45,710 nt of DNA from a virus. Positions 10,801 through 41,041 of the stretch are shown in pieces. The stretch lies in IMG/VR virus record IMGVR_UViG_3300023281_001248, positions 1 through 45,710 of that record; one strand, 5' to 3'. Within the stretch, counting starts at the first letter, position 1. Each line of letters opens with the position of its first letter. The notes beneath the pieces were generated by a model, which saw only the letters and a list, made by a program, of their open reading frames with translations, ran no database searches and had not been told where the DNA came from. Made by a program: the position numbers and the translations under genes.

Positions 10801-13800
10801 TCGATGGATGATAAAAATATCTATACGCCCACCGTTGGTATCCCTGACCTCGCCTTTCTTCTGAGCGGAAACTACCGTGTCAGGGCTATCTACTATTTGA
10901 CTCAGCTTTACGCGATTACCTTGTGCGGAGAACAGCACATCTTGTGCCGTACCAAGTGACAGTTCATCATCTACCTGCTTCGGCGACCGAATACCTATGA
11001 CGACCGGAACATCTATCATTGCCACGTACTCAGTTACGCCGGTCTCCTGGTGCTTATCCAGTGCTTTCTGCACGTCCTGTTCGTCAGCAAAGACGATCTC
11101 CCACCCCTTGCGACGAAGACCCATGTAGGCACGAATCTGTTCTGTTGAAACAACGGAATCAGAGACCAGCGTCATGCCACGCTCTAACGCCAGCATATGC
11201 ATCTTCTCGATCAGCTGTTGACCAATACCCTGGTTTTGGAACGACCCCTTGACACTAGCACTTTTGATCTGCAACGCGTTCTCAAGTTCTTCAAGCGGAA
11301 GGTTTACAAACGCTCGCTTGAATGCACCCATGTATGAGATGCGAGTCCCGCTTTCCTCATCCCTAGATATGATGTCGATCGCCTTCTCACTCTCCCCAAT
11401 ATTAAAACTTTGAGCATCACTATCACCAGAGAAGAACGTGTCGCCATCAATCGGCACATCTTCTTCTGGCTCTTTGGAGATCCTTTCGATCCGCTCAGAT
11501 ACGCTCTCGTTGACAGCCTCTACGGGACGCGTCCTGAAGACTGCCGCCACATTGTCGACGTAGTAACCAACGTACCCGGCGTCTTTGATTGCTGTCTCAT
11601 AAAGATTAAAGAACTCGACACCTCTATCCATTCCATCCTTGAGACCGTCTGGATCGTTTCTCATGTCATACAGTTTCGCCGGGTCAACGCTAGACTCCAG
11701 CGCAGCTTGCCCACGCAGACCAGGTTCAGGCTTGTAGCCACCTTCCTCACCAACATTCAAGCCGTAGTAAATTCGGTCCTGATAGGTATCCGGGTTCGAT
11801 CGCTTGCGCTTACCCTCAGCACCACGTATCCCAGTACCGTGGAACTGCGGATCGATTTCCGTAATCTCGCTTTGCTTCGTGAAATGCGTGAGACGAACAC
11901 GTCCGTCTTCGCGAGTCGATGGTGCCGGACTTGCTTCGGCTGAGAAGAACTCGTCAACAACTTCTATTGCAGACGGATGACCGACAAAATCGTACTTAAC
12001 TCCACCCAATTGAAACGCAAACTTATTTTTGCCAGTGGTTTGCGTGTTAGCAAGTTGCTCATCAGTAACCGGGGCGTATACACCCAACTCTATCTGGGCT
12101 TGACGCGCCGCCTTTAGTAGCTTTCTATCACCATCGTTTTCAGCCTTCTGCTCTGCATCTTGCAGTGCCGTATACAAATCAGTTTCGCCGCCTTCACTTT
12201 CACGCTGAGTCTCAGTTAAAAACTCAACCTCATCGTTCAACTCTTTGCTGGCGACAGTATCTAACGCAGTCTGAACCCTGGTATCTAACGGTTCACCTTG
12301 TTCAGCAATTGTCGCATTTTTTGGGCCGCGCAAATTTTCGTTTTCACGACTTGCTTTCTGGATTCGTAAACCGACTGCACGTTTGGTGCCTTTCTTATCT
12401 ACGCCAAGCATGTCAGCGGCACGATCAATCTCTGCTCTTGTGTGTTGCGTAACAGCTTTAACCATCTGCTGATCCGTGCTTGTAAGATCCTCAATTACGA
12501 AACGGGCTGCTGCTTCTTCATCTTTGGTGGCTTTGGCAACGGGTTTCTTAGCTGGTAGCGTTTTGCGATCAACAGCCACAGACAACGCCTTAGTCAGCGC
12601 AGCATCAGCTGCCTTTCGATCTTCAACATTAGGTAACTCCAGACCTCCCGGTGTCTTTTCTGTTGGTAGCTCCTTTTGAGTTTTAATAGCGACCTTGAGA
12701 GCATCCTGCTCTTCAGGCGTCATTAGATCGATGCGCCACTGCTTCTGATTACGGTAAGACTCAAATGCCTCTTCTACTTCTGCTTCCCGCTTCTTTTCGG
12801 TGGTCTTGGCAGCGGGTTTCTTAGCTGCGGCTTTTGGTTTGACTTTTGGTTTAGCTTTAGCTGTCCGCTGTTCGTCCCCTTTCCGATCGGCTTTCTTGCT
12901 CCGCTCTGCACGTCCGACCGGCTGTTGAATATCCTGGCTGCTTTCCCCGCCGACGCTTTCGGTGACAGTCCGTCCTGTCTGAACTTGGTCTTCAGTTTCT
13001 GGAATTGCTTGGGCACTTGGAGCCTCCTGTGTGTCTCGACCTGATACCAGTTCGGCAGCAGCATCCGTTATGCGCGTGACGATCGCCGCCTTGTTACCAG
13101 TTTTCTTTACGCCGAACTCATCGGCCATAACCTTCAGTTGGGCAACCGTCTGCTTTGTGATCTCAAACTCGCCGTCTTCATCTGTAGACAGTGCGGCCCT
13201 AGCATTCAGAAGATCATCAGCAGTCGGCTCGGCAGTCTCTTCATCGAACGCCAGTTCTTCTGGTGTTGGTTCCGGCTCGACATCACCTTCGTCTTCGGGA
13301 CCGGGTTCTGGTTCCGTTACGAGATCGTCTTCTGTGACGACTTCATCATCTGGTCGAGCAGGTGTGGCTGCAGGTCCAGTATCCTCCCCAGTCGGTTTGG
13401 CTTTTCCATCCTTCGCAGGACTCGGTTTTCCAGTATCGGTCGCGGCCTCACCTTCGTCTGGTTCTTGGACCGTGGTTTCATCGACTTCTTCTGCTTCGGC
13501 TTGTGCTGTTCCACTGGCTTCCTCCGGTATGACGTTGACTGCCTGCCCAGCTGCACCTGCACCAGGATCTACAGGTGGCAATTCACCAGGCTCGTCTTCT
13601 TGCGTGGCATCCGCGGCCTCTTGTGCTGGTGGCTTGGTTCTGTCATGCGCCTGACCGAATGCACCACCGGCACCCGGCATGAGGAATCCTGTAATGAATG
13701 CTGCTGGCAAGACGTTGGTCTCATCCTTCATTTTCTGTATTGCCTGCTCTACAGTGATCGTCTCCTGGCCGAGTTGAATCCCGGCTTCGAGCGGACCCTC

Positions 13801-27841: not shown

Positions 27842-30349
27842 TTATGTCGCAATAGTATCAGGTGTACGAATAGCTGCCTGCACCAGTCCGCCCGAATCGA
27901 TCGTTTGCTCGATCTCGAAAGGCTGAATTGGATCTACGCTGCCGCCGTTACGAACCCGGACCAGGACCGGAATGTCGGTCAGGTACACCAGGTTGGCGCT
28001 AGACATGGTCACCGGATCTCCACCTGTAGAAACGACATCGAGGATCGGAATGTAAGCGGTGTCCGCTGCGTTCAGATCGTAAGGAATGGCGTTGATGCTG
28101 TACGTGTCTGAGCCATCCCAGTCGTCGTCGGTGCCGCCAGTAAGCGGTGTATGCGTGATCTGTGTCGCGCTGTCGATACTGGTGATAACGCCCCAGCTGT
28201 CATCGGTGATGTTCCTGATGATGTCGCCGATAGCCGGATCGTCCGTGGCATTGGTGAAGTTCGCGCTGGTGTCAATCAACGTAGTACCGGCTGCATTCGC
28301 GGTCGTTACACCCGTACCTTCGGCCACAGGTGACAACACGAGATCCGTGCCAGAGAACGACGCGTACCTGAACCTGAGTTCTCGTGTGTTGACCGTATCA
28401 ACGACACGAATCGTTCCCGACTCTGGTGTGTCATTAGGAACCGTGGCGTCGAGCCTGATCTGCGTATCAGCGAGACCATTGAATACCCCGGTAGGCGCGG
28501 CCATGCCATGCTGCGCCTTGTCGATCGAACCAGAAGGCGCGGTCAACACGAAGATGCCAACACGATCTGCGTCGGTTCCGTTCGTGCCGGATACGCTTGC
28601 GTTGATAAACAGCGGCGGATTTCTTACGTTGCCATCGTCATCAACCAGCTGGAACGCCTGCACGTCGGCAGGTGCTACGTCTGTCAGAACAACACCCGGT
28701 GCGCCGAAGTACGTGCCACCAGCGAAGGTTCCGAGAGGCGCGGACTTAGGCGTGGTGATTGTTCGTGTTGATGCCACCGTAGCGAAGTCGGTATACGACC
28801 CCTGTGTCGCGTTGTCACCGACCTGTGTGATCGTATTGCCAGTGAAGATCCTGGTGTTGCGCATGATCAGGTCGCCTGTGGCTCCATCATCATGATCGGC
28901 AACAACTGTGCCCTGCGCGACAAGAGCGTTACCACTGTCATGGAAGTAAAGAACCTCTCCCTCGACAAAGGCACCGGTCTGCGTGTTGTACTCGGCCTGC
29001 AAGTCCTCACCGATGTACGCCTCACCGTTGATACCTTCAGCGTCAAAGATGTACGTGCCACCACCTGTTCTGCCACGCCTGCACTCAGCTTTGTGGAACT
29101 GGTACACGTCAGAGACTGTGTTGGCATTACAGTCGACCGCGATACTGTATGGGAATGCGGCCTGACCACCACCAAGGGACACGTCCGTAGCAGCGAAGAC
29201 AATCGTCGGATCTGTACCAAGGGCGGCAGGACCGACATCAGTCGGAGCAACAGCAGTAGCGAATTCAGCGGAGGTCTGCCCCGTGAACTGCCCGGTGCCA
29301 GCACTGAAGTCCGCCAGTGCCGGACCAATAAGGTAATACTGAATCGTGAGGTTCGGAGCCGTGCCGGTACTTGATGTCACAACACCCTGGATCGTTGCGT
29401 CCGAGTCATCTTCGATTACCTCGCCGACCGTGAACTGACCCGTTGGGCCAACACTCACGACCTGCTGACGCAGACCAGTGGCGTTGTTCAGGTCACCACC
29501 GGTTGCAAGCGGCACCGGCTGTCTGCCGCCAGTTGTCAAGTCAATGATGAACTGATCGTAGAGCGCGCCGTACTGCCTTGCGAATACCGTGATCTCGGCG
29601 TCGTCTATTTCGACATCGGTAGATTTAACCTTTACCAAGATGTCGATCTGACCCGAACCCCACCAGCGATTGGTAGCGCCTACCTCGCGACCAATTAGTT
29701 CGGCCCCACCCTGATAGATGTACAGCTGCGTGTTGACAAAGATCGTACCCAGAGTGAATACATTGGTCCAAAGACTTTCGCCAGTTTCTGACGCCAGTCC
29801 GCCGCCACTTGCGGCAGCGTACGTATCGGTAAAGTCACCAACACCCGTTCCGCCCGTAATGGTGAACGCTTCTGTAGCCGCATCATCAAACAAGTCGGTT
29901 GCCGGATCGTCAGGACGTATCCATACCACGCCTAGCTCTGTGCCGTAGCGTTCATCGAACGCCAGGATTACGCCGCTGTCGCCAGTTGTAGTGCCAACAA
30001 TTGGCAAGCCAATATCGGTTGAGGCAAGTGCCGTACCGGCACCCGTGGCGTTGTAAGAGATCGCTCGGATCTCACCTGATGCCCAGCCCACAGTAGACAT
30101 GGCACCGCCAGTCAGGTACTGCGTTGACTCGTCATCGCAAAACCATTGGTTGATCCATGTGAATGCGGTCGGCGTCTGGGCAGACATCGGCACCGGGTCA
30201 TCCATCTGATCTGGCTCATCGAAGAGATCTTGAAGTGCGGAATAAAGCGCGAGAACTGTGTCGGTGGTCGTCAACTGTACTGCCGTGTCTCGATAAACAC
30301 GTTTTGCCGTGTAGTCGATGTCCCAGCGGTTGCCTAAAAATGTGCCCAT
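27842..30349 (-). CDS. Large virion protein, unrecognised, preceded by an AGGA hairpin
   Basis: The 835-residue protein opens WDIDYTAKRVYRDT, then ALYSALQDLFDEPDQMDDP and MSAQTPTAFTWINQWF, a start found in large structural proteins of some marine phages. The rest is Gly/Thr/Asp-rich and beta-like, with repeated motifs of the type GTxxGDSG / VIxSSTGTAP / DSWGVITSID that suggest stacked small beta domains. A late virion fibre or tail spike is plausible. The 97-nt leader is one of the longest in the window and holds one of three identical 14-nt hairpins, about 30 nt before the ATG, plus a separate ribosome site (TAGGAG). Confidence 0.8.
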   Translation of the reverse strand: MGTFLGNRWDIDYTAKRVYRDTAVQLTTTDTVLALYSALQDLFDEPDQMDDPVPMSAQTPTAFTWINQWFCDDESTQYLTGGAMSTVGWASGEIRAISYNATGAGTALASTDIGLPIVGTTTGDSGVILAFDERYGTELGVVWIRPDDPATDLFDDAATEAFTITGGTGVGDFTDTYAAASGGGLASETGESLWTNVFTLGTIFVNTQLYIYQGGAELIGREVGATNRWWGSGQIDILVKVKSTDVEIDDAEITVFARQYGALYDQFIIDLTTGGRQPVPLATGGDLNNATGLRQQVVSVGPTGQFTVGEVIEDDSDATIQGVVTSSTGTAPNLTIQYYLIGPALADFSAGTGQFTGQTSAEFATAVAPTDVGPAALGTDPTIVFAATDVSLGGGQAAFPYSIAVDCNANTVSDVYQFHKAECRRGRTGGGTYIFDAEGINGEAYIGEDLQAEYNTQTGAFVEGEVLYFHDSGNALVAQGTVVADHDDGATGDLIMRNTRIFTGNTITQVGDNATQGSYTDFATVASTRTITTPKSAPLGTFAGGTYFGAPGVVLTDVAPADVQAFQLVDDDGNVRNPPLFINASVSGTNGTDADRVGIFVLTAPSGSIDKAQHGMAAPTGVFNGLADTQIRLDATVPNDTPESGTIRVVDTVNTRELRFRYASFSGTDLVLSPVAEGTGVTTANAAGTTLIDTSANFTNATDDPAIGDIIRNITDDSWGVITSIDSATQITHTPLTGGTDDDWDGSDTYSINAIPYDLNAADTAYIPILDVVSTGGDPVTMSSANLVYLTDIPVLVRVRNGGSVDPIQPFEIEQTIDSGGLVQAAIRTPDTIAT

Positions 30350-30379
30350 TGAATGACTCCTACAATTGTGGGGCTGAGA

Positions 30380-30393
30380 GTCACTCCTGCGAC
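30380..30393 (-). promoter_or_regulatory. AGGA-loop hairpin, copy 3 (leader of the 835-residue gene)
   Basis: On the minus strand the 14-mer GTCGCAGGAGTGAC can fold as GUCGC / GUGAC (one G.U pair) with loop AGGA. A G.U pair could extend the stem by one. It is identical to the copies at 39734 and 41028, but its flanks differ. The ribosome site of the gene lies further downstream, so this element is not simply a Shine-Dalgarno sequence. Confidence 0.7.
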
Positions 30394-30446
30394 CGCTTGC
30401 CGATTTGTACCAGAATTAGAGATTTATCGCTACTAAGTGTTCATGA

Positions 30447-32786
30447 CTAATCCGCGAATGTTGCCGCTGCGCTGACGTAACTCTTTGAAGATGCGTCGTA
30501 ATCACAGCCGATATTGTGCGCGCCAGTTACTACCCTGTCGGCACGAATGATTGTTACTTGTTTCAAGTTGTCGACGGCACGATCCGCCCTGCGTATAGAT
30601 CCTACGCCCGTCGCTGCAGGCGGGAACGTGTCCATGTCGTCAGTCAGGCTGAACATGACATCGATTGCGGGTTGCGTCGTGTTGTTCAAGCTGATACTCG
30701 GATTCGTTGTCACTGCCTGCCCGACACTGTTGCCGTCATCTTCTTCAGCACCGGTCGCCGCCAAGTTAATTACCGCAAACGCCAGCGCACGGAATGGGGC
30801 CGCGCCAGACAGTGTAAGCACCACGTCTTTGGTCCCACTATCGGCGTCAGGAATATCGTACCGGTACAGGAACACTTCATGAAACTCAGATCCTTCCTGT
30901 ACAAAGTTGCCGCCGCCAGTATCGGTCATGGCGTTGCCATCGTAAGTGAATGACGACACCGTTCGGTTAGCCGCTGAATCCCAGTAAAAACCAGCAACAA
31001 CTATCTTGCGCCTGGTGCCACCGGGTAGCTTAACCCTCGCGGTAATCGTTGTGCCGCTGACATCGTTGCTGACCTGACCGTGCTTGCTGATGTCGAATCG
31101 CGTCGAATCGATTCCACCTGCCGTAGTGTCCTCCGTCATGCCGACCGTCACAGAAAGACCGGTGGATTCAATCAAGCCAGGATCGGATTTTGGCAAGTAT
31201 CTGGTATCGCCTGGACTAGACTTCCTGACCTCGATAGTGACGGCAAGATCACCGCCGTAGTTATAGGTTCCGTCCGTATAGACACCCGTTGCATCTGTGC
31301 GCCCCTGAGAAACTAAGCTGTTGTCACTGCTGTCTCGGATACTTACGATGACATCCTCAAGAGCCACTGCGTCGGCATCCTTAACGGTGACGTTAAGTGA
31401 CACCGTCTGGACGACCGTTGTCGTGGCACCAGCACCGTTACGCACGCTAGGACTGTCACCACCGACGACCGTGATTGTAATTGCGCCACCAGTATCATTA
31501 AAGACAGCTGCATCAGCTGCGCCAGAATTCGCAACCAAATTGGAGCCTGGTGTGCCACCGAACCCAGAGAACGTGACGCCAGTCCATGATCCAGTAGCAA
31601 GAGCCTCTATTGCATGACCTGCCCCGCTCTGCACGAACAGCGTATTATTCAGGTCAGTTGTCGATCCAAACGTAGGGTCTTGCAAGCAGGCGACGTTGGT
31701 AAGTGCGTTACATTTAATGATCGCGTTTTCAATGTTGCACGAGGCTTGAGTGAGCAGCATGCACTCAATTTCACCGTTGACATCACACACGCTAGTGAAT
31801 GCGACATCACGGAAGTTTCGCATTACCCCCGTGAAGACGTATGAACCAGACGTTCCGATCACTTCGTAATCAGGACGGGTGTCGTTGGCATCCGCTCCAT
31901 TGCGCGTTCCAGCACCAATCAGTAACGCACCGTCAGCTAAAATAGAACTGGCGTTACCGATGTCCATCGAGACACCAAACAGACCGCGACTGTGATACCC
32001 GTCAGGGAACGTGACAATCGACGTACTGTCGTCAAACTCAGTAGCGGTTCCAGACGCACCAACGGTGGCGATACCACGGAAGGTAACTGCGTCACCGATG
32101 CCGATAGCCGCGCCCCATCGTTTATCGATGTCGTTCTGATCCGCTTCTACGAAATCCGTGTACTTGGCCGCTGGATCGGCACCAGTGCCGTTTAATACCG
32201 TCAGCCCAGTGCCGTAGTCGATGGCATCAAAGGCGAGGTTTTCAGATTTTGAGTTACCGTTAATGAATACGGCGCGCATGCCATACCAAATAACCGCTGT
32301 CTGATCAAAGGTTCCACCGGAGTCAGCGACGTTAGCCCAGGTGTCAATCGTTGGATCAACGCAGGTAATCAGGTATCCACCCTGCGGTGGATACGTGTCG
32401 TAAACAGGCAGTGCCGCATCTGTACCCGCCAAGACATATTCATGGTAGTTGGATTGATCTGCCGAACCAATGCCAAGCTCAAGTCCAAACGCGACCTGCA
32501 GATCAAAGGCATCGGTAATATAGCCCTTGAAGTACAGCAGTCGGTTCGACGCCGCCGTGAAATCAACAGCAGAACCGATGTAATCAACGCCATCGCGTGC
32601 CGCGCCAGTAAGTTTAACGGCTGTACCGACGACACCCGTATTGGCAGCGGCACCAGTTGAAATCTGGTATGCGTTCGCGCCTTCAGATGCAGGTGCGCCA
32701 CCACCAGAACCGTAGTTACCCCAACCGGTATTAGCGTCAGAATCATTAAGCCTCGTACCATCAAATGTTACCGCGAGTACCGTCAT
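30447..32786 (-). CDS. Large multidomain virion appendage protein
   Basis: The 779-residue protein begins TVLAVTFDGTRLNDSD with a beta-rich domain. A central stretch (about 270-440) has short repeated strands like those of right-handed beta-helices (IENAIIKCNALTNVAC, LNNTLFVQSGAG). Around 465-560 is a carboxypeptidase-regulatory-like/Ig-like segment (VSLNVTVKDADAVALEDVIV to DATGVYTDG). The C-terminal 220 residues resemble a domain common in viral and environmental proteins (KIVVAGFYWDSAANRTVSSF and LTLSGAAPFRALAFAVINLA). No signal. It probably forms a fibre or spike. It starts as ATGA overlapping the upstream stop, with GAGAGGTG before it. Confidence 0.78.
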   Translation of the reverse strand: MTVLAVTFDGTRLNDSDANTGWGNYGSGGGAPASEGANAYQISTGAAANTGVVGTAVKLTGAARDGVDYIGSAVDFTAASNRLLYFKGYITDAFDLQVAFGLELGIGSADQSNYHEYVLAGTDAALPVYDTYPPQGGYLITCVDPTIDTWANVADSGGTFDQTAVIWYGMRAVFINGNSKSENLAFDAIDYGTGLTVLNGTGADPAAKYTDFVEADQNDIDKRWGAAIGIGDAVTFRGIATVGASGTATEFDDSTSIVTFPDGYHSRGLFGVSMDIGNASSILADGALLIGAGTRNGADANDTRPDYEVIGTSGSYVFTGVMRNFRDVAFTSVCDVNGEIECMLLTQASCNIENAIIKCNALTNVACLQDPTFGSTTDLNNTLFVQSGAGHAIEALATGSWTGVTFSGFGGTPGSNLVANSGAADAAVFNDTGGAITITVVGGDSPSVRNGAGATTTVVQTVSLNVTVKDADAVALEDVIVSIRDSSDNSLVSQGRTDATGVYTDGTYNYGGDLAVTIEVRKSSPGDTRYLPKSDPGLIESTGLSVTVGMTEDTTAGGIDSTRFDISKHGQVSNDVSGTTITARVKLPGGTRRKIVVAGFYWDSAANRTVSSFTYDGNAMTDTGGGNFVQEGSEFHEVFLYRYDIPDADSGTKDVVLTLSGAAPFRALAFAVINLAATGAEEDDGNSVGQAVTTNPSISLNNTTQPAIDVMFSLTDDMDTFPPAATGVGSIRRADRAVDNLKQVTIIRADRVVTGAHNIGCDYDASSKSYVSAAATFAD

Positions 32787-35386
32787 CGATCACCTCTCAC
32801 GTTAGGTTCTAGCACGATCCAACTCGCGGCATGAGCGGCAGCGGCCCATTGCGTCTGCTGCTCTTGCGCCCACCACAGAGCCGGACATTCGTCCGCGTAC
32901 CAGATGTCCGGTGGGCATGAAAGCCATACGGTTGGTAAACACGGTGCCTCCCAATTACTTCTTCTCTCTTGCGCAAACCAAGTGCCGCCAATTTCTTCGT
33001 TGACAGCCGTCCATGTTCCCCCAGGTTCTTCGGCAGATTGTGCCTCATGTGGTATCTCTGCCGCCAGCCATAAACTAGCACATCGCAATGCTTGCCATCC
33101 TGCGGTATTGCAATCCGCCAGCCACAATTCGCAATCTTCAGCGTCTCGCGTAACGAACAAAGCGAATAACGGATCAACCCACTCGACCGGAATCCTGGCT
33201 TCGACACCGGGATCGACGCGCCATTCGATTGGCATCGTTCCATCGGTTGGGTCAAGAATGCCTCTGGCTTCCCACGGAATTATTTGATTGAACTGCTTGA
33301 AGAAAATCTGCTGCCACTCAATAAGGATCTGGTGATCCGTTGCGACAAAACTTTCTTGCAGCCACTCGAACGGTATCGTGCTGTCGAAAAGCACGGGGCT
33401 GAACCACGCAATCGGGATCTGATGATCGCTTGCCAATGCCGGACTCAGCCATTCGACGGGAATAGAATTTTCGTCGCCTACATCTACCGTCCATTCGATC
33501 GGGACACCGAACGACTGCAGAGCGTCGAGATTCCACTCCACTGGTATGGACGCGTTCAGGGCAACGCCCTGCGTCCATTCGTAGGGAATGATGAAGTCAA
33601 CCGCACTGAACTCACCACTCCAAGCAACGGGAATTTGATGGTCAAGCTCTAACTGCAGGAACCATTCGACGGGAATGCCGTTATCTATTACGAGATCCGT
33701 TTTCCATTCGACCGGCATCTGCCTGTCAATTTCCAGGAAGACGGTGAGCGCCCACTCGTATGGAATGACGTGATCGGTCTCTAGTTCCGTCGTCCACTCA
33801 ATCGGAATGACTGCATCGGCATCAAGGAAGCCAGCCCAGTTGATTGGAATGGCGTGCGTCGATACCAACACGCTTTCAAGCAACCACTCGACAGGGATCT
33901 GGTGATCCGTTTCTAACTCCGTCGTCCATTCGACAGGCGTCTGTCGGTCTGTTTCGAGATCCAGTTTCCAGTCGAACAGTATTTCGTAATCTGATCCTGG
34001 ATCTGAAAACGGTCCTCGCCAAGCGAACGGTATAACGAAGTCAGGTGGTGGCTGGACCTCTCCTTCCCATTCAAAAATTGGCTGGTGATCTGAAGTAACT
34101 CCACCTCGCCATTCGATTGGAATCTGAGAGTCATGCGGGGTGATCGTGCCTCGCCATTCGATAGGAACTTCTCGATCAACATCAAGTTCGAGAGTCCACC
34201 CAACCGGTATTCCAGAGTCTGCACTTAACGGTCCTGACCAAATAATTGGCATCGACCCATCAGCAGCAATTCCTTGAAGCCACGAGACTGGTATTTCATT
34301 ATCAGCAGCAATTCCTTGCCGCCACTCAATTGGAGCCAGGTGATCACCTGGCGTCGTTACGTTGATCCACTCGACAGGGATCTGATTATCGAGAAGCAGA
34401 TCGGTCTTCCATTCAACAGGTATTGCATGGTCTACCTGCAAATCCTCACTGGCATATTCAATGGGTATCTGCTTATCAATTGCGAGACCCTGCTGCCACT
34501 CGACAGGAATGACGTGATCACTATCGACAGGCGTCTCAGCGGAGATGGCGTAGAGAACTGCGGCATAAGCCGCGGTCAGTCGAACGGGTGTTGTATCGTC
34601 TTGATGCAGTACCGCCGCATAAGCCGCGCTCAGTCGAACTGGCGTTCCATCGTCTTGATGCAGTACCGCGGCATAAGCAGCAGTCAGTCGTACATTGGTA
34701 TTGGTCGAGGCATCAGCGAGAGCCGTATCACCGGCTGTACCGACCGCAACGTAATCGACTTCAAACTGATCCTGATTGCCACAGCCAACACCAACCCAAC
34801 CATCGACATCGAGGTCGGAATCGGTTTCATCAATCAGCCAATCAGTTGGTTCTTCGTCACCATCACTCCATACACGGAACTGAAGTGCGGTTCCATTCTT
34901 ACGAAATCGACACCAGTACCACTTGTCGATTACCGGGTGCTGATCGGCAGCGGATCGAATGTCGTTGTCGGGCCAAACGACAACAGTACCAATATCGGTG
35001 GATGTACCAGCATCGTATCGTTTTAGTTGCCACCGTTCGCTTGAGCCAACGAGTTCATAGCCAACGTAGTAGCCATCTTCACTACCGGCGCTACCGGACC
35101 CATTAACCCAAAAACTGATACCAAGATCGGCGTCGGCGTCATTGATTCGCCAGCGAACAAGTATCTCCGAATCTTCACGATTCGTGTCACTGTCAACAGC
35201 ATCAAAAGAGAAAAGACGTTCCGCGTTAGCCGTGTGGACAAATCGAAACGCTCGATCGTCTTCGGCCTCACCGTCAGAGGGGTTTTCAACGGTGTCCGTC
35301 TGGTTGCTGGTTGTGAAACGCGCAGTAAAATTTGTCGGGGCGGACCCCGTAGTCATGCCCGCAAAGTCTTCGGAATATGTCGTCAT
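32783..35386 (-). CDS. Virion protein with LamG-like head, AAYAAVL repeats, about 31 IPVEW repeats and a Trp-rich tail
   Basis: The 867-residue protein has four parts. Residues 1-225 are a LamG-like domain (LGISFWVNGSG, WQLKRYDAG, WCRFRKNGTALQFRVW). Next are three near-identical 18-residue units, VRLTAAYAAVLHQDDGTP. Residues about 285-737 hold about 31 tandem units of about 14 residues with consensus D-H-x-I-P-V-E-W-x-x-x-L-x-x. The last 110 residues have ten Trp placed every 7-12 residues in W-x-A-x-E contexts. No signal or membrane segment. The regular Pro-Val-Glu-Trp spacing suggests an extended beta structure. A tail fibre or surface appendage is the best guess. No ribosome site precedes the ATG at 35386, so translation is probably coupled to the upstream gene, which stops 8 nt before. 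Confidence 0.82.
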   Translation of the reverse strand: MTTYSEDFAGMTTGSAPTNFTARFTTSNQTDTVENPSDGEAEDDRAFRFVHTANAERLFSFDAVDSDTNREDSEILVRWRINDADADLGISFWVNGSGSAGSEDGYYVGYELVGSSERWQLKRYDAGTSTDIGTVVVWPDNDIRSAADQHPVIDKWYWCRFRKNGTALQFRVWSDGDEEPTDWLIDETDSDLDVDGWVGVGCGNQDQFEVDYVAVGTAGDTALADASTNTNVRLTAAYAAVLHQDDGTPVRLSAAYAAVLHQDDTTPVRLTAAYAAVLYAISAETPVDSDHVIPVEWQQGLAIDKQIPIEYASEDLQVDHAIPVEWKTDLLLDNQIPVEWINVTTPGDHLAPIEWRQGIAADNEIPVSWLQGIAADGSMPIIWSGPLSADSGIPVGWTLELDVDREVPIEWRGTITPHDSQIPIEWRGGVTSDHQPIFEWEGEVQPPPDFVIPFAWRGPFSDPGSDYEILFDWKLDLETDRQTPVEWTTELETDHQIPVEWLLESVLVSTHAIPINWAGFLDADAVIPIEWTTELETDHVIPYEWALTVFLEIDRQMPVEWKTDLVIDNGIPVEWFLQLELDHQIPVAWSGEFSAVDFIIPYEWTQGVALNASIPVEWNLDALQSFGVPIEWTVDVGDENSIPVEWLSPALASDHQIPIAWFSPVLFDSTIPFEWLQESFVATDHQILIEWQQIFFKQFNQIIPWEARGILDPTDGTMPIEWRVDPGVEARIPVEWVDPLFALFVTRDAEDCELWLADCNTAGWQALRCASLWLAAEIPHEAQSAEEPGGTWTAVNEEIGGTWFAQERRSNWEAPCLPTVWLSCPPDIWYADECPALWWAQEQQTQWAAAAHAASWIVLEPNVRGDR
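32810..33150 (-). repeat. Trp-rich degenerate repeats
   Basis: The C-terminal part of the 867-residue protein repeats short units such as ELWLADC, SLWLAAE, GTWTAVNE, GTWFAQER, DIWYADE and LWWAQEQ. The units share W at a fixed place and Ala/Glu after it, at about 7-12 residue spacing. Confidence 0.65.
33177..34532 (-). repeat. About 31 tandem IPVEW units
   Basis: Counting each [IVM]P[VIFY]xW core gives about 31 units of 13-17 residues between these positions. Some neighbouring units are very alike (LETDHQIPVEW, LETDRQTPVEW, LETDHVIPYEW), others have drifted. The pattern is selected at protein level, with recent local duplications. Confidence 0.9.
34553..34693 (-). repeat. 54-bp direct repeat, three copies (last one partial)
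   Basis: Copies of a 54-bp unit code the 18-residue VRLTAAYAAVLHQDD-x-TP repeats. DNA identity is high, with mostly third-position changes, which points to recent in-frame duplication. It is not CRISPR: the copies abut without spacers and lie inside a reading frame. Confidence 0.88.
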
Positions 35387-35394
35387 GCGCTAGA

Positions 35395-36411
35395 TCACGT
35401 TTGCAGATCCAGGCCAAACTGTGCTGTATTTACAGTCGACTCAATCCAGTCCGAACCACCGTTTGGATTGTTTTCATAAATATTATTCACGAACTGCCAA
35501 TCAACACCAAGAGTAAGATTGCCGCTCTCGACCTCTGTCGTTCCATTCCTGGCTATCGTCCTGACTTCACGAACACCAGCATCTTCTTTTCGCACTAACA
35601 TTTTTGCATCGACACCGAACACGGTGCCAACACTTCCCGCTAAAGCCGCAAAATTATATAACTCACGATCTGTCGCAGTAGCTGACCAGTTGTAGGTGGT
35701 GTCATCGTCAGGCGTCAAGCCATCATCTACGGCCTCATAGTTATTGGTTCCACCACCAACGCGAGTAAAGTCATTCTCGTTACCATCGGCATCAGGAAAG
35801 ACGGTTTCGACGCGACAGTCACCAAGCGGCCCGGTATTGTCAGTTCCGGCATCATCAAGGATATAAAGATCGTCAATCTTCATATCGGTAGTGGTGGTAG
35901 AAACAAACTCGATATTATTTACGTCTGTCGTGGTGCCGTTCTTAGTATCGACGCCGGTATCTGACATTATCGAACTGCCATCAACAAACACATCATAGGT
36001 GCCGGTACTATCGTGAATCGTGACATCAACTTCAATGTAATACCACTGACCAGAATTGAGGCCGAGGCCACTGGTTATTTCTAGTGCGGTAGTGCCGCGA
36101 TTGATCTCAAGTTCACCGGCAGCAGTAAGATCCAGACCAATATGATCGGTGGCATCATTTCGTATGTTGAAAAACCGGGTATTGATAAGGCCTGATGTGA
36201 ACTGCACGGCAAAACCAACCGTAACGACATCGGTTGCAGGGAAGGCTTTTACAATTGGTAGGCCACTAGATAAGCACTGAATACACTGGTCACTACCATG
36301 CCGACCAGCAACAGGGTCCCACGCCGCAATAGATATAGAACTCCAGCCACCACGAGTTAGATCAGTGTCGACATCGTATTGCTCAAATCCATCAATTACG
36401 AGCAGGGCCAT
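35395..36411 (-). CDS. LamG-like virion protein, paralogue of the 22.1-23.3 kb gene
   Basis: The 338-residue protein MALLVIDGFEQYD has a LamG-like N-terminal region (about 1-190; GQWYYIEVDVTIHDSTG, YDVFVDGSSI, IDDLYILDDAG). A second region starts ETVFPDADGNENDFTRVGGG and matches that of the product of 22089-23294. No signal. The start at 36411 is chosen over a longer frame to 36534, because the extra residues are Arg/Cys-rich and overlap the upstream gene; the ribosome site (AGGG) is weak. Confidence 0.78.
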   Translation of the reverse strand: MALLVIDGFEQYDVDTDLTRGGWSSISIAAWDPVAGRHGSDQCIQCLSSGLPIVKAFPATDVVTVGFAVQFTSGLINTRFFNIRNDATDHIGLDLTAAGELEINRGTTALEITSGLGLNSGQWYYIEVDVTIHDSTGTYDVFVDGSSIMSDTGVDTKNGTTTDVNNIEFVSTTTTDMKIDDLYILDDAGTDNTGPLGDCRVETVFPDADGNENDFTRVGGGTNNYEAVDDGLTPDDDTTYNWSATATDRELYNFAALAGSVGTVFGVDAKMLVRKEDAGVREVRTIARNGTTEVESGNLTLGVDWQFVNNIYENNPNGGSDWIESTVNTAQFGLDLQT

Positions 36412-36419
36412 GACAAGCC

Positions 36420-36713
36420 CTACAGTTTCAGATAGGTCATCTCGACGCCAGCAGCTGGATCGATCGCGCCTGCGGTCGGGTTGACAAAACGCACCGTCAG
36501 CTGACCAGGAGCGGTTCCCCAGGCAGTCGCGCAATAACCCAGGCCGTCATCGAGACCGGAAGCACCAAGATCGAATGCAACAAGGTATAACTCGCCTACC
36601 TCGACTCCAACCAGGCCAGTGATGTCGGCATCAACTGTAGTAATGGTAGCGATCGACGGCAGATCGACTAACTTTTGCCGGACATCATCCGCATTGATTT
36701 TGGTAACACTCAT
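36420..36713 (-). CDS. Small virion-associated protein
   Basis: This 97-residue protein is Ala/Gly/Val-rich and beta-like (VGVEVGELYLVAFDLG, GQLTVRFVNPTAGAI). No signal. TAGGAGA lies 6 nt before the ATG. It lies between the adaptor and a LamG-like gene. A small tail or decoration protein is likely; no family recognised. Confidence 0.7.
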   Translation of the reverse strand: MSVTKINADDVRQKLVDLPSIATITTVDADITGLVGVEVGELYLVAFDLGASGLDDGLGYCATAWGTAPGQLTVRFVNPTAGAIDPAAGVEMTYLKL

Positions 36714-36722
36714 GTCAATCTC

Positions 36723-37490
36723 CTAGAAGAAGTGCGCCTTTACACGACGCGGATAATTTCGTTCCTGGCTGCGAACCCGCAGCAGACGTGCTGACGGTCT
36801 CTCACCGACCATTGCAGTAAACGTGTCCAGGAAGTCTTGCGCAAGTTTTTTGTCCTCAGTTTCAGAATCACGTTTCTTGTACGCCAGATGCTTCATGTAT
36901 TCCAGCAGGCACAGGTGATGCTCTTGCGCAATCTCTGGACCATCCTGATGTCGCGAAGGCCAAAGCATGTCAGCCGCGGCATACCTGTCGACCGTCATGT
37001 GGATGGTTCCAGCGAGATCCGGCACACGATACAGCTGCAACTGGTTGGTGTCCGTATCCTCGACGTAGTAGATGACCGTGCCTTCAACGGGACTGGTTTC
37101 TTTGTCCCAGTCCGTTACTTCGAGATCCATTTGCTGTGTGGTGCGCTTGAGCAGAATAAACTCGTCGCCGTTCGAATCTACGAACTTCATGCGCCGAATT
37201 GACAGAATCTTTGGTGACAACGCGTACACACCAGTCGACGCCAAGACGGGTATTTGAGTGATAGCAGCAGTCGTGTCTTGATCAAGGATTGGCTGGCGAA
37301 AACAGAACTCGGTCTGAGCCTGATTCGCGTACCGGCAGATCTCCTGGTTAGACCATAGGAGACCGGTATCTTTATTCTTCCAGTTTACGTCTGTGACGGT
37401 ATCCCCAGGTAAATCGTCAACATCCTGCCGGAAGAGTGTTGCCAGTTCCTCTAGCGTCAGAGGTGGCTTAATGTCCTGGGCACTCGCCAT
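36723..37490 (-). CDS. Head-tail adaptor-like protein
   Basis: The 255-residue protein has a helical N-terminus (LTLEELATLFRQDVDDLP), a stretch LWSNQEICRYANQAQTEFCFR like the first helices of connector proteins, a beta segment (VYALSPKILSIRRMKFVDSNG) and C-terminal helices (EHHLCLLEYMKHLAYKKRDSE) ending basic. This is the plan of ring-forming adaptors bound under the portal. Location after the capsid genes and before the tail genes agrees. The ribosome site is weak. Confidence 0.7.
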   Translation of the reverse strand: MASAQDIKPPLTLEELATLFRQDVDDLPGDTVTDVNWKNKDTGLLWSNQEICRYANQAQTEFCFRQPILDQDTTAAITQIPVLASTGVYALSPKILSIRRMKFVDSNGDEFILLKRTTQQMDLEVTDWDKETSPVEGTVIYYVEDTDTNQLQLYRVPDLAGTIHMTVDRYAAADMLWPSRHQDGPEIAQEHHLCLLEYMKHLAYKKRDSETEDKKLAQDFLDTFTAMVGERPSARLLRVRSQERNYPRRVKAHFF

Positions 37491-37500
37491 TTGTTTTTAC

Positions 37501-37977
37501 CTATTCTTCTGCGTCGTCTTCCTCTTGGCGTGCAACCTGCTCGTCCTGGATCTCGGCAAGCAACGACTTGCGAGCCTTACCGGCGCGCTCCATCGTTGCC
37601 AACTGGTCCAATGCCGAATCAGATAAGCCGCCAAGCGCGTCCTGTGCTTCACTGACCTTCATGCCAACGATTGTCTCGCACATCTGCATTTCGATGTCGA
37701 GATCCTCCTCTTCCTGGAGTTTGTCGGCGTCACTGGGTTCGTCCGGTATTTCAACAAGCTCTGGTTCCGGCTCTGGTTCCGGTTCCGTCATGGCTTCACC
37801 GAACTTGGTGTATTCCTTGATCGAAAGCAATCTGGCAAGATCCGCCTCGTCTGTTACTTCACAAACGTGAGCCTCACCGCTGCCCTCGCGTGGCTTGAAC
37901 TCGTACGGGCCAGCTGGCATTTGGATTGTCGAGCCGACGCCATTACGCGTGCGCCTGATATGTAATTCTACGAGCAT
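37501..37977 (-). CDS. Acidic protein downstream of the capsid block
   Basis: The 158-residue protein has a beta-type N-terminal half (MLVELHIRRTRNGVG, AGPYEFKPREG, AHVCEVTDEADLARLLSI), a Pro-Glu run and a helical acidic C-terminal half. Similar small YEFKP-type proteins lie near connector genes in other phages; role unknown. It is the first gene after the strong terminator, with GGGGAGA 6 nt before the ATG. Confidence 0.72.
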   Translation of the reverse strand: MLVELHIRRTRNGVGSTIQMPAGPYEFKPREGSGEAHVCEVTDEADLARLLSIKEYTKFGEAMTEPEPEPEPELVEIPDEPSDADKLQEEEDLDIEMQMCETIVGMKVSEAQDALGGLSDSALDQLATMERAGKARKSLLAEIQDEQVARQEEDDAEE

Positions 37978-37995
37978 GAGCTATCTCCCCAGATT

Positions 37996-38024
37996 AAAAA
38001 TAGTGGGGGCGAAAACGCCCCCAC
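37996..38024 (-). terminator. Strong intrinsic terminator after the capsid genes
   Basis: On the minus strand GTGGGGGCG-TTTT-CGCCCCCAC makes a perfect 9-bp GC-rich stem followed by TATTTTTAA. It lies between the capsid block and the connector/tail genes. Only about 20 bases separate it from the next start, so downstream genes either rely on read-through or on a promoter I do not see. Confidence 0.88.
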
Positions 38025-38060
38025 CAATCCACAAACCAATCACCCGAAGAGGATGGTTGG

Positions 38061-38537
38061 TTAAACGCTTTCGAACTGAGATCCAAGCTCTGGACGTGTC
38101 ACCAGTGTCGCGTGAATGTCAGCAGCGATACCCGTTGCAGACACAACGTCAACGTCTACGATAACGTACCGATCGTAGTTAGCTGCCGCGAAATCCCAGA
38201 TTGCAGCAGTCTCGTACCGGTTGTTGGCAGCGGCCTGAATAGACTGAGCAGATGCGAACAACGTCGCGTCAGTCGTATCAGTAGGATCTTGCACGGTGTC
38301 TTCCACACCGACATCGATCGTACCCGTTGCGCCAGTGTCAAGATCTTCATTGATCAAGACGAGCGACACGATTCGATGCTGGGCCGGAACCTTCAGCAAC
38401 CGGATTCGCGTTGCCACGTCTTCCGTGTCTGTCGTCAGAAGCGAAATCCGCGTCTGTTGAGTGGTTGTCTGACCGGCTTGCGCTGACGCGATAGACGGTC
38501 CAGAGTTTCCACCCATGACTGTTTCTAATGCAGGCAT
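38061..38537 (-). CDS. Probable capsid decoration or head protein
   Basis: The 158-residue protein is beta-rich (IRLLKVPAQHRIVSLVLI, YVIVDVDVVSATG) with no signal. It lies right after the major capsid gene and before the terminator, so it is likely made in similar amounts. Proteins of this size and position in N4-gp56-capsid phages are often head-associated. TAGGAGA is 7 nt from the ATG. The name rests on position. Confidence 0.65.
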   Translation of the reverse strand: MPALETVMGGNSGPSIASAQAGQTTTQQTRISLLTTDTEDVATRIRLLKVPAQHRIVSLVLINEDLDTGATGTIDVGVEDTVQDPTDTTDATLFASAQSIQAAANNRYETAAIWDFAAANYDRYVIVDVDVVSATGIAADIHATLVTRPELGSQFESV

Positions 38538-38582
38538 ATCTTTCTCCTAAATGGGCATCTCATTTCAGCCCTGTGCTAACTA

Positions 38583-39701
38583 CTAGCCTGGATCAGCTGA
38601 GTACGTGTCCAGAGCGATGACACCGAAGTCCTTCGCAGTACCTTCGATGGTGAAACGGGTTTTCTTCAGTCCGAAGATTGAAGACGTGCTGATAATCAGC
38701 TGGTTCCCGTTGTCACGAGTTTCCTCGTGCCAGTTGAAACGCAAGCCCGTACCCGGTGACCCGAACGCGACCACAGCAGCCTGGGCACCAAGGAACAGTG
38801 CGCGTGCAGCAGGTTGATCCGAACCAGCACCGGCATCCGTGAAACGAATTACACCCTTGTTAGAGTGGAGAACTACCGAGTTATGCATGCCCAAACCGCC
38901 CTTAAATATCGGCGAGGACCTGCCTTCAGCAGTTGCTGCTGACTTCTGGATTTCGAGCCAGTTACTTGCACCGGTTGCGGTACGGAGATCGAACGCCTGC
39001 CAGGGTGACATGAGCAACACGTAGTGTTCCTCACCGTCAATCATGACCGGCTGGATCTGCGGCGTGCCTTGCGTGCCGCCACCCATCATCACGGCTTTCG
39101 TGATGGCACGATCAATTTCAACAGTCGTTATCTGGTCGTTGTTCGAGATCGTTGCGTACGACGTGGCGTCACCACCGTACATCACATGCTCGGCGTCCGG
39201 CGTAGCAATCGCGTTGTTACTGAAACCGGTATAACTCGTCGGGAAGATGTACTCGGTATTCGCGCCACGCGAACCACTGAGATAAATGAAGAAAAGTTCG
39301 TCGAAAATGCGACCCCACCACTCAGCCTGTCTGGAGCGCGCAACACGACGAAGGTCGTGAATAGTTCTTTTGCGCGTCATCCGTCCACCGCTGTTCGTGC
39401 CTCCGCGCATTTGATCGATAAAAACTGAGTCCGTATAGAACTTCAAATCTTCCTCAGTTCCTTCCTGAACATCATCGCCTTCGATCGGCTGTTGACGGAG
39501 TTGCATAGAGAGATCAAAGGTGATTTGTTCACCGGCATCTGACTCTAATTGGGGAAGCATTTGAATCGGCATCCCTGATTCTGGACCGACTCCCATGAAC
39601 TTCTTATTGAAATACGATACACGGGCTGTATCGACCGCCAGGAATGCGGAAAACCGCTTGACGGCTTTGGCGTCGTTAAGACCGATAATGGTTTGCGCCA
39701 T
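38583..39701 (-). CDS. Major capsid protein, N4-gp56 family
   Basis: The 372-residue protein fits the N4-gp56 major capsid family. It starts AQTIIGLNDAKAVKRFSA, has a phage capsid E-loop-like segment with GEQITFDLSMQL and a conserved middle (GRMTRKRTIHDLRRVARSRQ, then ELFFIYLSG), and ends with the usual strand set (LGAQAAVVAFG, RFTIEGTAKDFGVIALDT). It assembles the head shell on the scaffold. The leader holds an AGGA hairpin about 33 nt upstream and a separate ribosome site, TTGGAGG. It lies after the scaffold and the CsrA-like gene. Confidence 0.93.
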   Translation of the reverse strand: MAQTIIGLNDAKAVKRFSAFLAVDTARVSYFNKKFMGVGPESGMPIQMLPQLESDAGEQITFDLSMQLRQQPIEGDDVQEGTEEDLKFYTDSVFIDQMRGGTNSGGRMTRKRTIHDLRRVARSRQAEWWGRIFDELFFIYLSGSRGANTEYIFPTSYTGFSNNAIATPDAEHVMYGGDATSYATISNNDQITTVEIDRAITKAVMMGGGTQGTPQIQPVMIDGEEHYVLLMSPWQAFDLRTATGASNWLEIQKSAATAEGRSSPIFKGGLGMHNSVVLHSNKGVIRFTDAGAGSDQPAARALFLGAQAAVVAFGSPGTGLRFNWHEETRDNGNQLIISTSSIFGLKKTRFTIEGTAKDFGVIALDTYSADPG

Positions 39702-39733
39702 GGTGACTAAACCTCCAACTTGGTTGGTAAGTC

Positions 39734-39747
39734 GTCACTCCTGCGAC
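39734..39747 (-). promoter_or_regulatory. AGGA-loop hairpin, copy 2 (major capsid leader)
   Basis: The same 14-mer as at 30380 and 41028, GUCGC-AGGA-GUGAC. Here the flanks extend the stem to 7 bp (UC before, GA after). It sits about 33 nt before the capsid ATG and apart from the Shine-Dalgarno sequence, so it is not kept for ribosome binding. Confidence 0.75.
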
Positions 39748-39764
39748 GATCAGAAATGTGAGCG

Positions 39765-39989
39765 TCAAGCGCCCCTTCTCGCGACTATAACACCATCAGG
39801 GGGGAGAACTTCAACTCCCACATCATCTGGAGCATCGATCGCGAGACGGGCGTATTTGTTCCCACGCTTGTAAATTAACTGAACAGTGACCTTTTTTGAG
39901 TCGTCACCGTTCGTTAATTTCAACTTGTGATTCGTGTGAAGATCAACCTCCAAGCGGCTTCCCCTCTCAAGATCATGGTACATAGCCAC
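39765..39989 (-). CDS. Small CsrA-like protein
   Basis: The C-terminal 40 residues of this 74-residue protein, VTVQLIYKRGNKYARLAIDAPDDVGVEV by eye, follow the CsrA/RsmA core: VTV, then G-N, then R-x-x-x-x-A-P-x-x-V-x-V at near-matching spacing. The first 30 residues diverge. The residues known to bind RNA in CsrA (the N-terminal L-x-R-R strand and the H-R-E-E-I segment) are not evident, so RNA binding is uncertain. Its place between scaffold and major capsid genes, beside two AGGA-loop hairpins, gives functional support. The alternative is a small beta-rich head protein. Start: GTG at 39989, with AAGGAA about 11 nt before, or ATG at 39983. Confidence 0.55.
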   Translation of the reverse strand: MAMYHDLERGSRLEVDLHTNHKLKLTNGDDSKKVTVQLIYKRGNKYARLAIDAPDDVGVEVLPPDGVIVARRGA

Positions 39990-39992
39990 CGA

Positions 39993-41024
39993 TCAATAAT
40001 TCCTTGAATCAAGGTACTGATCAGCTTTCGACTTCGGCATTTTCGCCAGAGCAGCTTCGAGATCCATGCCGTCCAACTTGTCTATCTGCGCAAATTCGTC
40101 GGTTGACTCTTCGGTCGCTTCCGCGACAGGAACGCCGCCTAACGTCTTTGGTGGCGGTTCTTGAGGCTTGTCCTTATGTTCGTCCTGAATCGTTTTAGCA
40201 CGCTGGACCTCGTCGGCATCGCTACCCTCTTCCGCTGGAATTGGTTTCTTCTCAAGGTTGAATGCGTCCTGCACACTAGCTGCCGCTTCGTGCAGGAACC
40301 AACGATAAGATTTTCCGTTATTTTCCTCTACGGCATACAACTCTTCGAGTGCGCCACGAAGCGCGCCGTAGACAACCGGGTTCTTGAACTGCTCATTCTC
40401 ATCAACGAACCGATCGACTTCCCAGTTCCAATGCTGATCTGCCATAAGTTCGTTATTACCGACAACGAATTCCGCCTCGCGCTTCTGAGCAGCAAGCTCT
40501 GCAAGGGTAGTTGTTAGCGTACGATTCTGTTTTGCATGTGCAGCATAATCGATTTCGCCTTCAGCAAGCTGCGCATCCAGTGCTTCAACAGCATCATTGG
40601 CAGCTTTCAACTGGTCCTCGTAGTCTTCAGGAATACCGCGTGCCGCAAGTTGGGCACGAAATGAATCTACTCCAGAAGGAGGAGGTGCTGTGGACTCGTC
40701 CTCACCACCTTCCTCAACTGGCTCGGCAGCTGCAGCTGCCTCACCATCGGGTTTGTCGCCATCGGCGTCATCCCCTTCTGCAGATTCCTTCTCGTCGCCC
40801 TCTGTCTGGTCGGCGACGGCACCCGCTTCCTTGTCATCGGAGGCCTGGGGAAGAACATCCGAATCAGAGTCCGCTGCGGCACCGTCACCGTCTGTTTCGG
40901 CAGATGCTATCGTATCTGATTCGTCACCCGTTCCCTCTGAGTCTTCTTCTTCCAATGCAGCCATTTCTTCGTCGGATAACCCGGCTGCGGCCATGTGTTC
41001 GTCTTGTACTGAATGCTTGGTCAT
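39993..41024 (-). CDS. Capsid scaffolding protein
   Basis: This 343-residue, strongly acidic protein has a disordered N-terminal half rich in Glu, Asp, Ser and Ala (1-120). A helical region follows (about 125-260; DQLKAANDAVEALDAQL, LAELAAQKREAEFVV, YGALRGALEELYAV), then a charged linker and a short basic C-terminal helix (LAKMPKSKADQYLDSRNY), which in scaffolds contacts the capsid. Position just before the major capsid gene and after the portal fits. Its AGGAG ribosome site lies inside the loop of hairpin copy 1. Confidence 0.85.
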   Translation of the reverse strand: MTKHSVQDEHMAAAGLSDEEMAALEEEDSEGTGDESDTIASAETDGDGAAADSDSDVLPQASDDKEAGAVADQTEGDEKESAEGDDADGDKPDGEAAAAAEPVEEGGEDESTAPPPSGVDSFRAQLAARGIPEDYEDQLKAANDAVEALDAQLAEGEIDYAAHAKQNRTLTTTLAELAAQKREAEFVVGNNELMADQHWNWEVDRFVDENEQFKNPVVYGALRGALEELYAVEENNGKSYRWFLHEAAASVQDAFNLEKKPIPAEEGSDADEVQRAKTIQDEHKDKPQEPPPKTLGGVPVAEATEESTDEFAQIDKLDGMDLEAALAKMPKSKADQYLDSRNY

Positions 41025-41027
41025 GTC

Positions 41028-41041
41028 GTCACTCCTGCGAC
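41028..41041 (-). promoter_or_regulatory. AGGA-loop hairpin, copy 1 (scaffold ribosome site)
   Basis: The same 14-mer lies directly before the scaffold ATG: GUCGC-AGGA-GUGAC, then GAC-ATG. Here the loop carries the Shine-Dalgarno sequence (AGGAG, 7 nt from the ATG), so folding or a bound protein would block initiation. A 17-nt stretch is identical with copy 2. Confidence 0.75.

Follow-up and report, generated by a model that had tools for sequence, protein, structure and literature searches.

Many phages carry csrA-like genes, and the proposals made so far for why they do so concern host metabolism and defense; for CsrA of the JC1, DC1, and F116 type, control of host physiology or of CRISPR has been put forward (PMC9144972, PMC8450108). 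The same question is raised by IMG/VR virus record IMGVR_UViG_3300023281_001248, whose 45,710 nucleotides (nt) are called the window here: a CsrA-like gene lies beside the major capsid gene, and a 14-mer, GTCGCAGGAGTGAC, is repeated in the leaders of virion genes. Within the papers that could be searched, we found no report of a phage CsrA target inside the phage itself. In the window, a deeply conserved RNA partner of the csrA-like gene lies next to it, in the capsid leader of the phage itself, which makes the question directly testable. Computational comparison demonstrated a hairpin (P1) and a competing helix (P3) that exclude each other, showed which late genes have them in their leaders, and linked them to the CsrA-like gene. 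The switch element recurs in well over 100 relatives among phages and prophages, nearly always with a CsrA-like gene next to it.

The P1 hairpin in the window and in related phages

The capsid protein of the window belongs to Phage_capsid_3/phrog_334 and its portal protein is P22-like, which groups the phage with the Bcep22-like short-tailed phages; the capsid protein is ~50 to 53% identical to those of BcepIL02, DC1, JC1, PEp14, SopranoGao, and Itty13. An initial annotation had described the 14-mer as a hairpin found three times in leaders, always on the coding strand, and we recovered it at 30380-30393, 39734-39747, and 41028-41041, all on the minus strand. The window held no further match even with two mismatches (shuffles averaged 0.54 matches at up to two mismatches), and a covariance model built from relatives returned exactly these three sites as its top window matches (scores in Table 1; next match, 15.0 bits). 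The proposed GUCGC/GUGAC stem and AGGA loop, with flanks that extend the pairing, were likewise found (Table 1), as were a Shine-Dalgarno sequence in the loop of the scaffold copy (AGGAG), separate ones in the capsid and fiber copies, and a CsrA-like gene between the first two copies, whose product (39765-39989) is encoded between the scaffold and capsid genes.

The comparison drew on 80 viral contigs whose capsid gene is related to that of the window, together with cultured phages. In nearly all of the 80, and in the cultured Bcep22-like phages, a P1 hairpin of the type GCGC-ANGA(N)-GUGC stands ~30 to 60 nt before the capsid start, and at 89 of 95 scanned loci we found a hairpin with a closing C-G pair, an adjacent G.U pair, and a loop of 4 or 5 nt. 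The annotation had named conservation of the stem pairing in relatives, with covariation, as its own test, and the stem passed it: 88.8% of P1 cells were paired, versus 69.9 in shuffles, and double-sided changes numbered 89, versus 35.8 (standard deviation [sd], 5.3). The stem covariation score of 0.449, versus 0.123, was reached by none of 500 shuffles, and slid registers scored far lower. The third P1 pair is C-G, with U-A in L060 and A-U in L080, and either G-C or U-A forms the fourth. In the covariation set, the inner C-G and G.U pairs are invariant, by search rule as well as by alignment; in variants found later, G.U is replaced by G-C (L160, L307) or, by inspection, by A-U (Paracoccus prophages).

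The copies fall into two classes. In class I, P1 itself hides the Shine-Dalgarno sequence; class II comprises the capsid, fiber, and other late genes with P3. Relatives of the window's scaffold copy keep P1 over the Shine-Dalgarno sequence, which lies in the loop (AGGAG) in the scaffold leaders of close relatives and in the 3' arm (GTGAAGGAG) in a sister group. Loop-type class I copies also precede F116 p49, its 8P counterpart, and one L073 gene. Endolysin leaders carry the element in Itty13, SopranoGao, PBC5, and, by leader sequence, Parlo, and so do the leaders of the Skulduggery lysozyme, Atu_ph08 DarB, F116 p48 and p53, and POI1126 gp21. A long P3 is present in some, not all, of these extra late-gene copies.

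The initial annotation had read the loop as the GGA target of CsrA. Among the 89 capsid leaders, the loop was AAGA in 23, AUGA in 20, AGGA in 18, and ACGA in 5, the others being various; only 27 keep GGA, and the loop is A-N-G-A. That interpretation survives for an RNA element in the scaffold, capsid, and fiber leaders, with a covarying stem and a tie to the CsrA-like gene, and fails for the canonical GGA loop. Plain GGA sites for a canonical CsrA, of phage or host, would suit the three window copies, all AGGA, and the class I copies, which resemble CsrA sites at Shine-Dalgarno sequences; however, GGA is absent from 62 of the 89 capsid leaders, and among 80 viral loci with canonical CsrA the element was found on the csrA strand in none. 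We regard this explanation as improbable and, for the family, as largely refuted already. A nuclease that cuts GGAG in the manner of RegB, suggested in the annotation as another reader, is also unlikely, as the loop reads NGAG with a variable N rather than a conserved GGAG.

Tandem P1 hairpins occur within one leader in L030, L032, L051, L069, and L073; in L030 and L032, for example, ACAGCGC-ANGA-GTGCTGT is followed by GGCGC-ATGA-GTGCC. An extra hairpin lies 5' of the capsid P1 in L033, L035, and L047, with an ANGA loop and G-C in place of G.U (CCGC-ATGA-GCGG in L047). At 4968 in L088 (Atu_ph08), the annotated capsid start precedes the end of P1, and the true start is probably the ATG that follows a Shine-Dalgarno sequence near 5001.

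A competing helix before the start codon

The sequence immediately 5' of the start codon is complementary to the loop and 3' arm of P1 in the same leader, and we call the helix that these form P3. This complementarity, which the initial annotation missed, is found in the capsid and fiber copies of the window and across the relatives. Mean duplex energy was -11.4 kcal/mol with the leader's own start region, -8.0 with swapped start regions, and -5.7 with shuffled ones, and across 153 leaders the longest P3 helix had 6.15 pairs with the own start region versus 4.95 (sd, 0.09) when swapped. The difference held within the set of 5-nt loops (6.18 versus 5.14; sd, 0.15) and the set of 4-nt loops (5.94 versus 5.46; sd, 0.10) and was weaker in the small set with a GTGAC arm (6.71 versus 6.34; sd, 0.12). 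At loop position 5, different phages have A-T, T-A, C-G, or G-C pairs. The helix is formed by GGATGTGC:GCACATCC in BcepIL02, GGAAGTGC:GCACTTCC in L045, and ATGACGTG:CACGTCAT in POI1126, and compensatory versions include AAGAGUGC:GCACUCUU, AUGAGUGC:GCACUCAU (which takes in the AU of AUG), AGGAGUGCUC:GAGCACUCCU, GGAUGUGC:GCACAUCC, GGAAGUGC:GCACUUCC, AUGACGUG:CACGUCAU, and GUAGUGC:GCACUAU.

Because P1 and P3 share one strand, they cannot fully coexist, and P3 has a U-A pair where P1 has its conserved G.U. The P3 state was the more stable in 55 of 73 leaders, by a median of 4.8 kcal/mol, and the paired fraction of the ribosome site was 0.73 in the P3 state versus 0.54 in the P1 state; the fiber leader of the window favors P3 (-15.7 for P1 versus -19.3 for P3). 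Two mutually exclusive helices, both conserved by covariation as P1 and P3 are here, mark a bistable cis-regulatory leader. P1 and P3 are almost certainly functional RNA helices, and, judged from sequence, the leaders are two-state RNA switches built on their mutual exclusion, with a predicted effect on expression.

Exclusive helices that respond to a protein are familiar from ribosomal-protein leaders and from riboswitch-like expression platforms. The phage leaders resemble these in placing two conserved helices on one shared strand, one of which frees the ribosome site while the other hides it. They differ in belonging to phage late genes, in occurring in several copies per genome, and in having no match at gathering score to any family in Rfam 15, and the element appears to be an undescribed class of cis-regulatory RNA.

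As a hold-out, 80 prophage or contig loci in bacterial genomes were found with the capsid alignment and scanned with the P1 rule unchanged, and both helices were reproduced. Strict P1 was present in 57 of the 80, compared to 0.25% of shuffled leaders and none on the opposite strand, and P3 measured 6.31 for the own start region versus 5.22 (sd, 0.14). A relaxed P1 rule had a false rate of 11.7% in shuffled leaders, so the strict counts are the ones to trust.

The annotation had also allowed for the 14-mer being a promoter element. A late promoter or operator acting as DNA, outside the RNA, would agree with a short repeat near promoter-like boxes, yet an invariant G.U is no feature of a DNA palindrome, and the covariation of stem and loop extends to a start region some distance away. 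Moreover, a -10-like box is enriched 19 to 25 nt 5' of the P1 closing C, not at the element itself, and is clearest in the cultured phages (GATAAT); its position makes it probable that P1 is part of the RNA, close to the 5' end, and not outside the transcript. Given the RNA-level covariation, the position, and the pairing with the start region, we rejected the promoter-element reading, and we give almost no credence to a DNA element of any such kind.

In the capsid leader of L277, the hairpin is a different one, GGTC-TAGGAG-GGACC; the start region, GGTCCTCC, is complementary to it, and a csrA-like gene lies nearby. This leader possibly has the same switch design in an unrelated sequence.

A CsrA-like protein as candidate reader of P1

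On its own, the window's 74-amino-acid (aa) protein matches Pfam CsrA weakly (E value, 0.21); the profile of its family matches CsrA/RsmE structures in the PDB (E value, 5e-8), and Pfam CsrA was found in 19 of 33 family members. By this profile evidence, the phage protein is a divergent CsrA homologue. Among 70 distinct family sequences, the position of R6 is L, V, I, or M in all 70 and T5 has mostly become D; the position of R44 is R in 14 and K in 10 (basic in 24), and position 4 is L, I, or V in 42. R44 and L4 are described as critical in CsrA (PMC7652899). Since R6 and R44 are not conserved, the canonical contacts are altered, and the phage family itself is a putative RNA binder.

The gene and the element are linked. 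In most relatives, the CsrA-like reading frame ends directly 5' of P1. In F116 and 8P, the csrA-like gene comes after the capsid gene, and P1 is absent from the capsid leader; the next virion gene has the element in its leader, where it overlaps the 3' end of the csrA-like gene. A search with the F116 protein gave 24 viral loci, and 22 of them have a model match at that 3' end. On a capsid tree of 106 rows (4 unscored), 88 leaders had both the gene and P1 (strict or variant), 7 had P1 only, 7 had neither, and none had the gene only. Leaders lacking P1 that also lack the gene are those of Desulfobacterota prophages, phiARM81mr, and Vibrio 1.205; L007, L051, L055, and L056 were rejected as CsrA-less loci once a csrA-like gene was found in them. 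In the rhizobial relatives PBC5 (L097) and Atu_ph08 (L088), P1 is retained at the capsid and other late genes even though the csrA-like gene is not next to the capsid gene (in Atu_ph08, it is at 12353-12517 of the record). Within the hold-out, 57 of 80 loci had a csrA-like gene within 3 kb. The P1-only cases there were mostly Rhizobiales, with a csrA-like gene elsewhere in the genome (in part possibly host genes), and its Desulfobacterota prophages had neither P1 nor the gene.

We propose that each element acts as a cis-acting RNA switch in a late-gene leader. P1, whose C-G and G.U pairs close an A-N-G-A or A-N-G-A-N loop, is transcribed first and so could form first. In class II leaders (capsid and fiber here; endolysin and DarB elsewhere), the P1 loop and 3' arm would then re-pair with the spacer between the Shine-Dalgarno sequence and the start, often into the AUG, and P3 would close the ribosome site. 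Given that P3 is the more stable in most leaders, something must hold P1. Loop bases A1, G3, and A4 are unchanged in 148, 139, and 152 of 153 leaders, even though compensated changes there would be compatible with P3, and this conservation suggests that P1 has a reader. The CsrA-like protein made from the gene directly upstream would bind the P1 loop and keep class II leaders open. At the class I scaffold leader, where P1 contains the Shine-Dalgarno sequence in its loop or 3' arm, the same binding would prevent translation, such that one protein might lower scaffold and raise capsid, fiber, and lysis proteins late in infection. If true, this adds a translational layer to the control of virion assembly (scaffold versus capsid) and gives a simple explanation for the near-invariant G.U of P1, which keeps P1 weak enough for P3, with its U-A there, to compete.

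Known CsrA/RsmA regulation, as at the glgC, psl, phz2, ymdA, and moaA leaders, offers several parallels: an A-N-G-(G)-A hairpin loop closed by C-G, a leader structure that decides translation, and a partner that is, by profile, a CsrA homologue. As at canonical Csr sites, the element overlaps or controls the Shine-Dalgarno sequence, which lies in the loop or 3' arm in class I; in class II, P3 covers the spacer between it and the start. There are precedents for both directions, as RsmA stabilizes a hairpin that hides the Shine-Dalgarno sequence at psl, and RsmA/CsrA prevents such structures at phz2 and moaA (PMC7652899). In contrast to the canonical loop, A(N)GGAX (PMC4005645), the phage loop is one G short (ANGA(N), not ANGGA(X)), and the R6/R44 contacts are not kept. 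The targets also differ, being the phage's own virion and lysis genes, as does the bistable P1/P3 design conserved across the phage clade. We conclude that the CsrA-like protein probably reads P1, although the direction, in which binding would open capsid and fiber and close scaffold, is evenly balanced in our judgment. The whole account, with P1 binding opening capsid and fiber translation and hiding the scaffold Shine-Dalgarno sequence, is the best explanation available and reasonably likely. A broader suggestion, to which we give slightly less than even weight, is that a phage branch of CsrA changed its specificity from ANGGA to ANGA and may run an autonomous late-gene switch (scaffold closed; capsid, fiber, and lysis opened) in a large group of short-tailed phages that is mainly proteobacterial.

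Several observations weigh against this account. Phage CsrA has otherwise been linked to host control or CRISPR (PMC8450108, PMC7366521), and the RNA contacts of CsrA (L4, R6, R44) are not retained in the phage family. A monomer model of the window protein (pLDDT, 77; pTM, 0.57) had no CsrA match in a fold search, a probable domain-swapped dimer having been modeled as a monomer. In the window's capsid leader, P3 is short (5 base pairs [bp]) and the two states are nearly equal (P1, -21.6; P3, -21.0). Of 102 capsid leaders, 7 have P1 (strict or variant) in a genome in which we found no CsrA-like gene; P1 may be read there by something else, for example a host CsrA. Some of the genome-level csrA matches may also be host genes. 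A tree-based independent-pairs test agrees in direction, with only two supported independent losses of gene and element, too few for us to claim significance.

The seven leaders lacking a detectable gene and the lost contact residues also favor a two-state switch with some other reader, whether an autogenous capsid or scaffold regulator, a host protein, or kinetic folding alone, and P1 and P3 rest on evidence of their own. Against this, the element of F116-like phages moves with the CsrA-like gene and leaves the capsid leader, the P1 loop differs from the canonical CsrA loop only in lacking one G (PMC4005645), and the presence of the element in endolysin and DarB leaders as well is easier to reconcile with a regulator acting in trans than with capsid autoregulation. 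We think a different reader unlikely, though it is the most serious competitor to the CsrA-like protein. Somewhat less likely still is the reverse direction, in which the CsrA-like protein would repress all late genes through P1 and/or the Shine-Dalgarno sequence until titrated, as CsrA does at glgC, with P3 as a further off-state. Most known CsrA targets are indeed repressed, often by binding to a hairpin and the Shine-Dalgarno sequence (PMC7652899), and class I copies hold that sequence inside P1; however, the class II ribosome site is less paired in the P1 state than in the P3 state, and it is difficult to see why P3 would be conserved if binding of P1 also turned translation off.

Among the phage CsrA proteins described as moron or anti-defense systems (JC1 gp47, DC1, F116 RsmM), the genes for JC1 gp47 and DC1 gp46 adjoin the element. 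The csrA-like gene of JC1 has been called a moron, and one peptide of gp47 was detected in virions by mass spectrometry (PMC9144972). RsmM-type canonical copies are genes separate from the element-linked family. The element can be probed in cultured phages, among them BcepIL02, JC1, SopranoGao, PEp14, and F116.

Knockdown of csrA in phage PTXU04 reduced plaque size (PMC11879866). We rejected this gene (gp28) as a member of the element-linked type, as it is of the canonical CsrA type. PTXU04 (L355, NC_048193) has one P1-like hairpin, GGGGCGC-AUGGA-GUGCCCC, with a canonical AUGGA loop, at 2637-2661 before the tail-fiber gene gp03. Another hairpin comes after it, next to the Shine-Dalgarno sequence, and its loop contains AGGGA. 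This single case is suggestive of a gp03 leader that may serve as a two-site target of canonical CsrA gp28.

Features mapped in the window

Table 1. Positions of the switch elements and associated genes in the 45,710-nt window
Feature	Position	Strand	Details
P1 hairpin, class I, scaffold leader	41028..41041	-	Exact 14-mer; 19.6 bits; 5-bp stem; AGGA loop + G = Shine-Dalgarno
P1 hairpin, class II, capsid leader	39732..39749	-	7-bp stem, UCGUCGC-AGGA-GUGACGA; 26.1 bits
P2 hairpin CCAAC-CAA-GUUGG, between P1 and capsid start	39715..39727	-	From sequence; folded in both states
P3 partner GUCAC, just 5' of capsid start	39703..39707	-	Pairs with GUGAC (39734-39738), P1 3' arm; supported by relatives
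P1 hairpin, class II, leader of 835-aa virion protein	30379..30394	-	6-bp stem; 22.6 bits
P3 partner GAGUCAUUC, overlapping Shine-Dalgarno	30351..30359	-	Pairs with GAGUGACUC (30378-30386) of fiber P1
Extended -10-like box TGGTACAAAT 5' of fiber P1, tentative promoter	30403..30412	-	Similar boxes in relatives
CsrA-like gene, 74 aa, proposed P1 reader	39765..39989	-	Profile evidence
Major capsid gene, Phage_capsid_3	38583..39701	-	Family match
Scaffold-position gene, phrog_8246, function unknown	39993..41024	-	Family match; between portal and capsid genes
835-aa virion/fiber-type gene behind third copy	27842..30349	-	No family match

The 3' arm of P2 touches the capsid Shine-Dalgarno sequence, GGAGG (39712-39716). 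Elsewhere in the window, the minus strand at 32783-35386 encodes an 867-aa protein whose many imperfect repeats center on an IPVEW-like motif.

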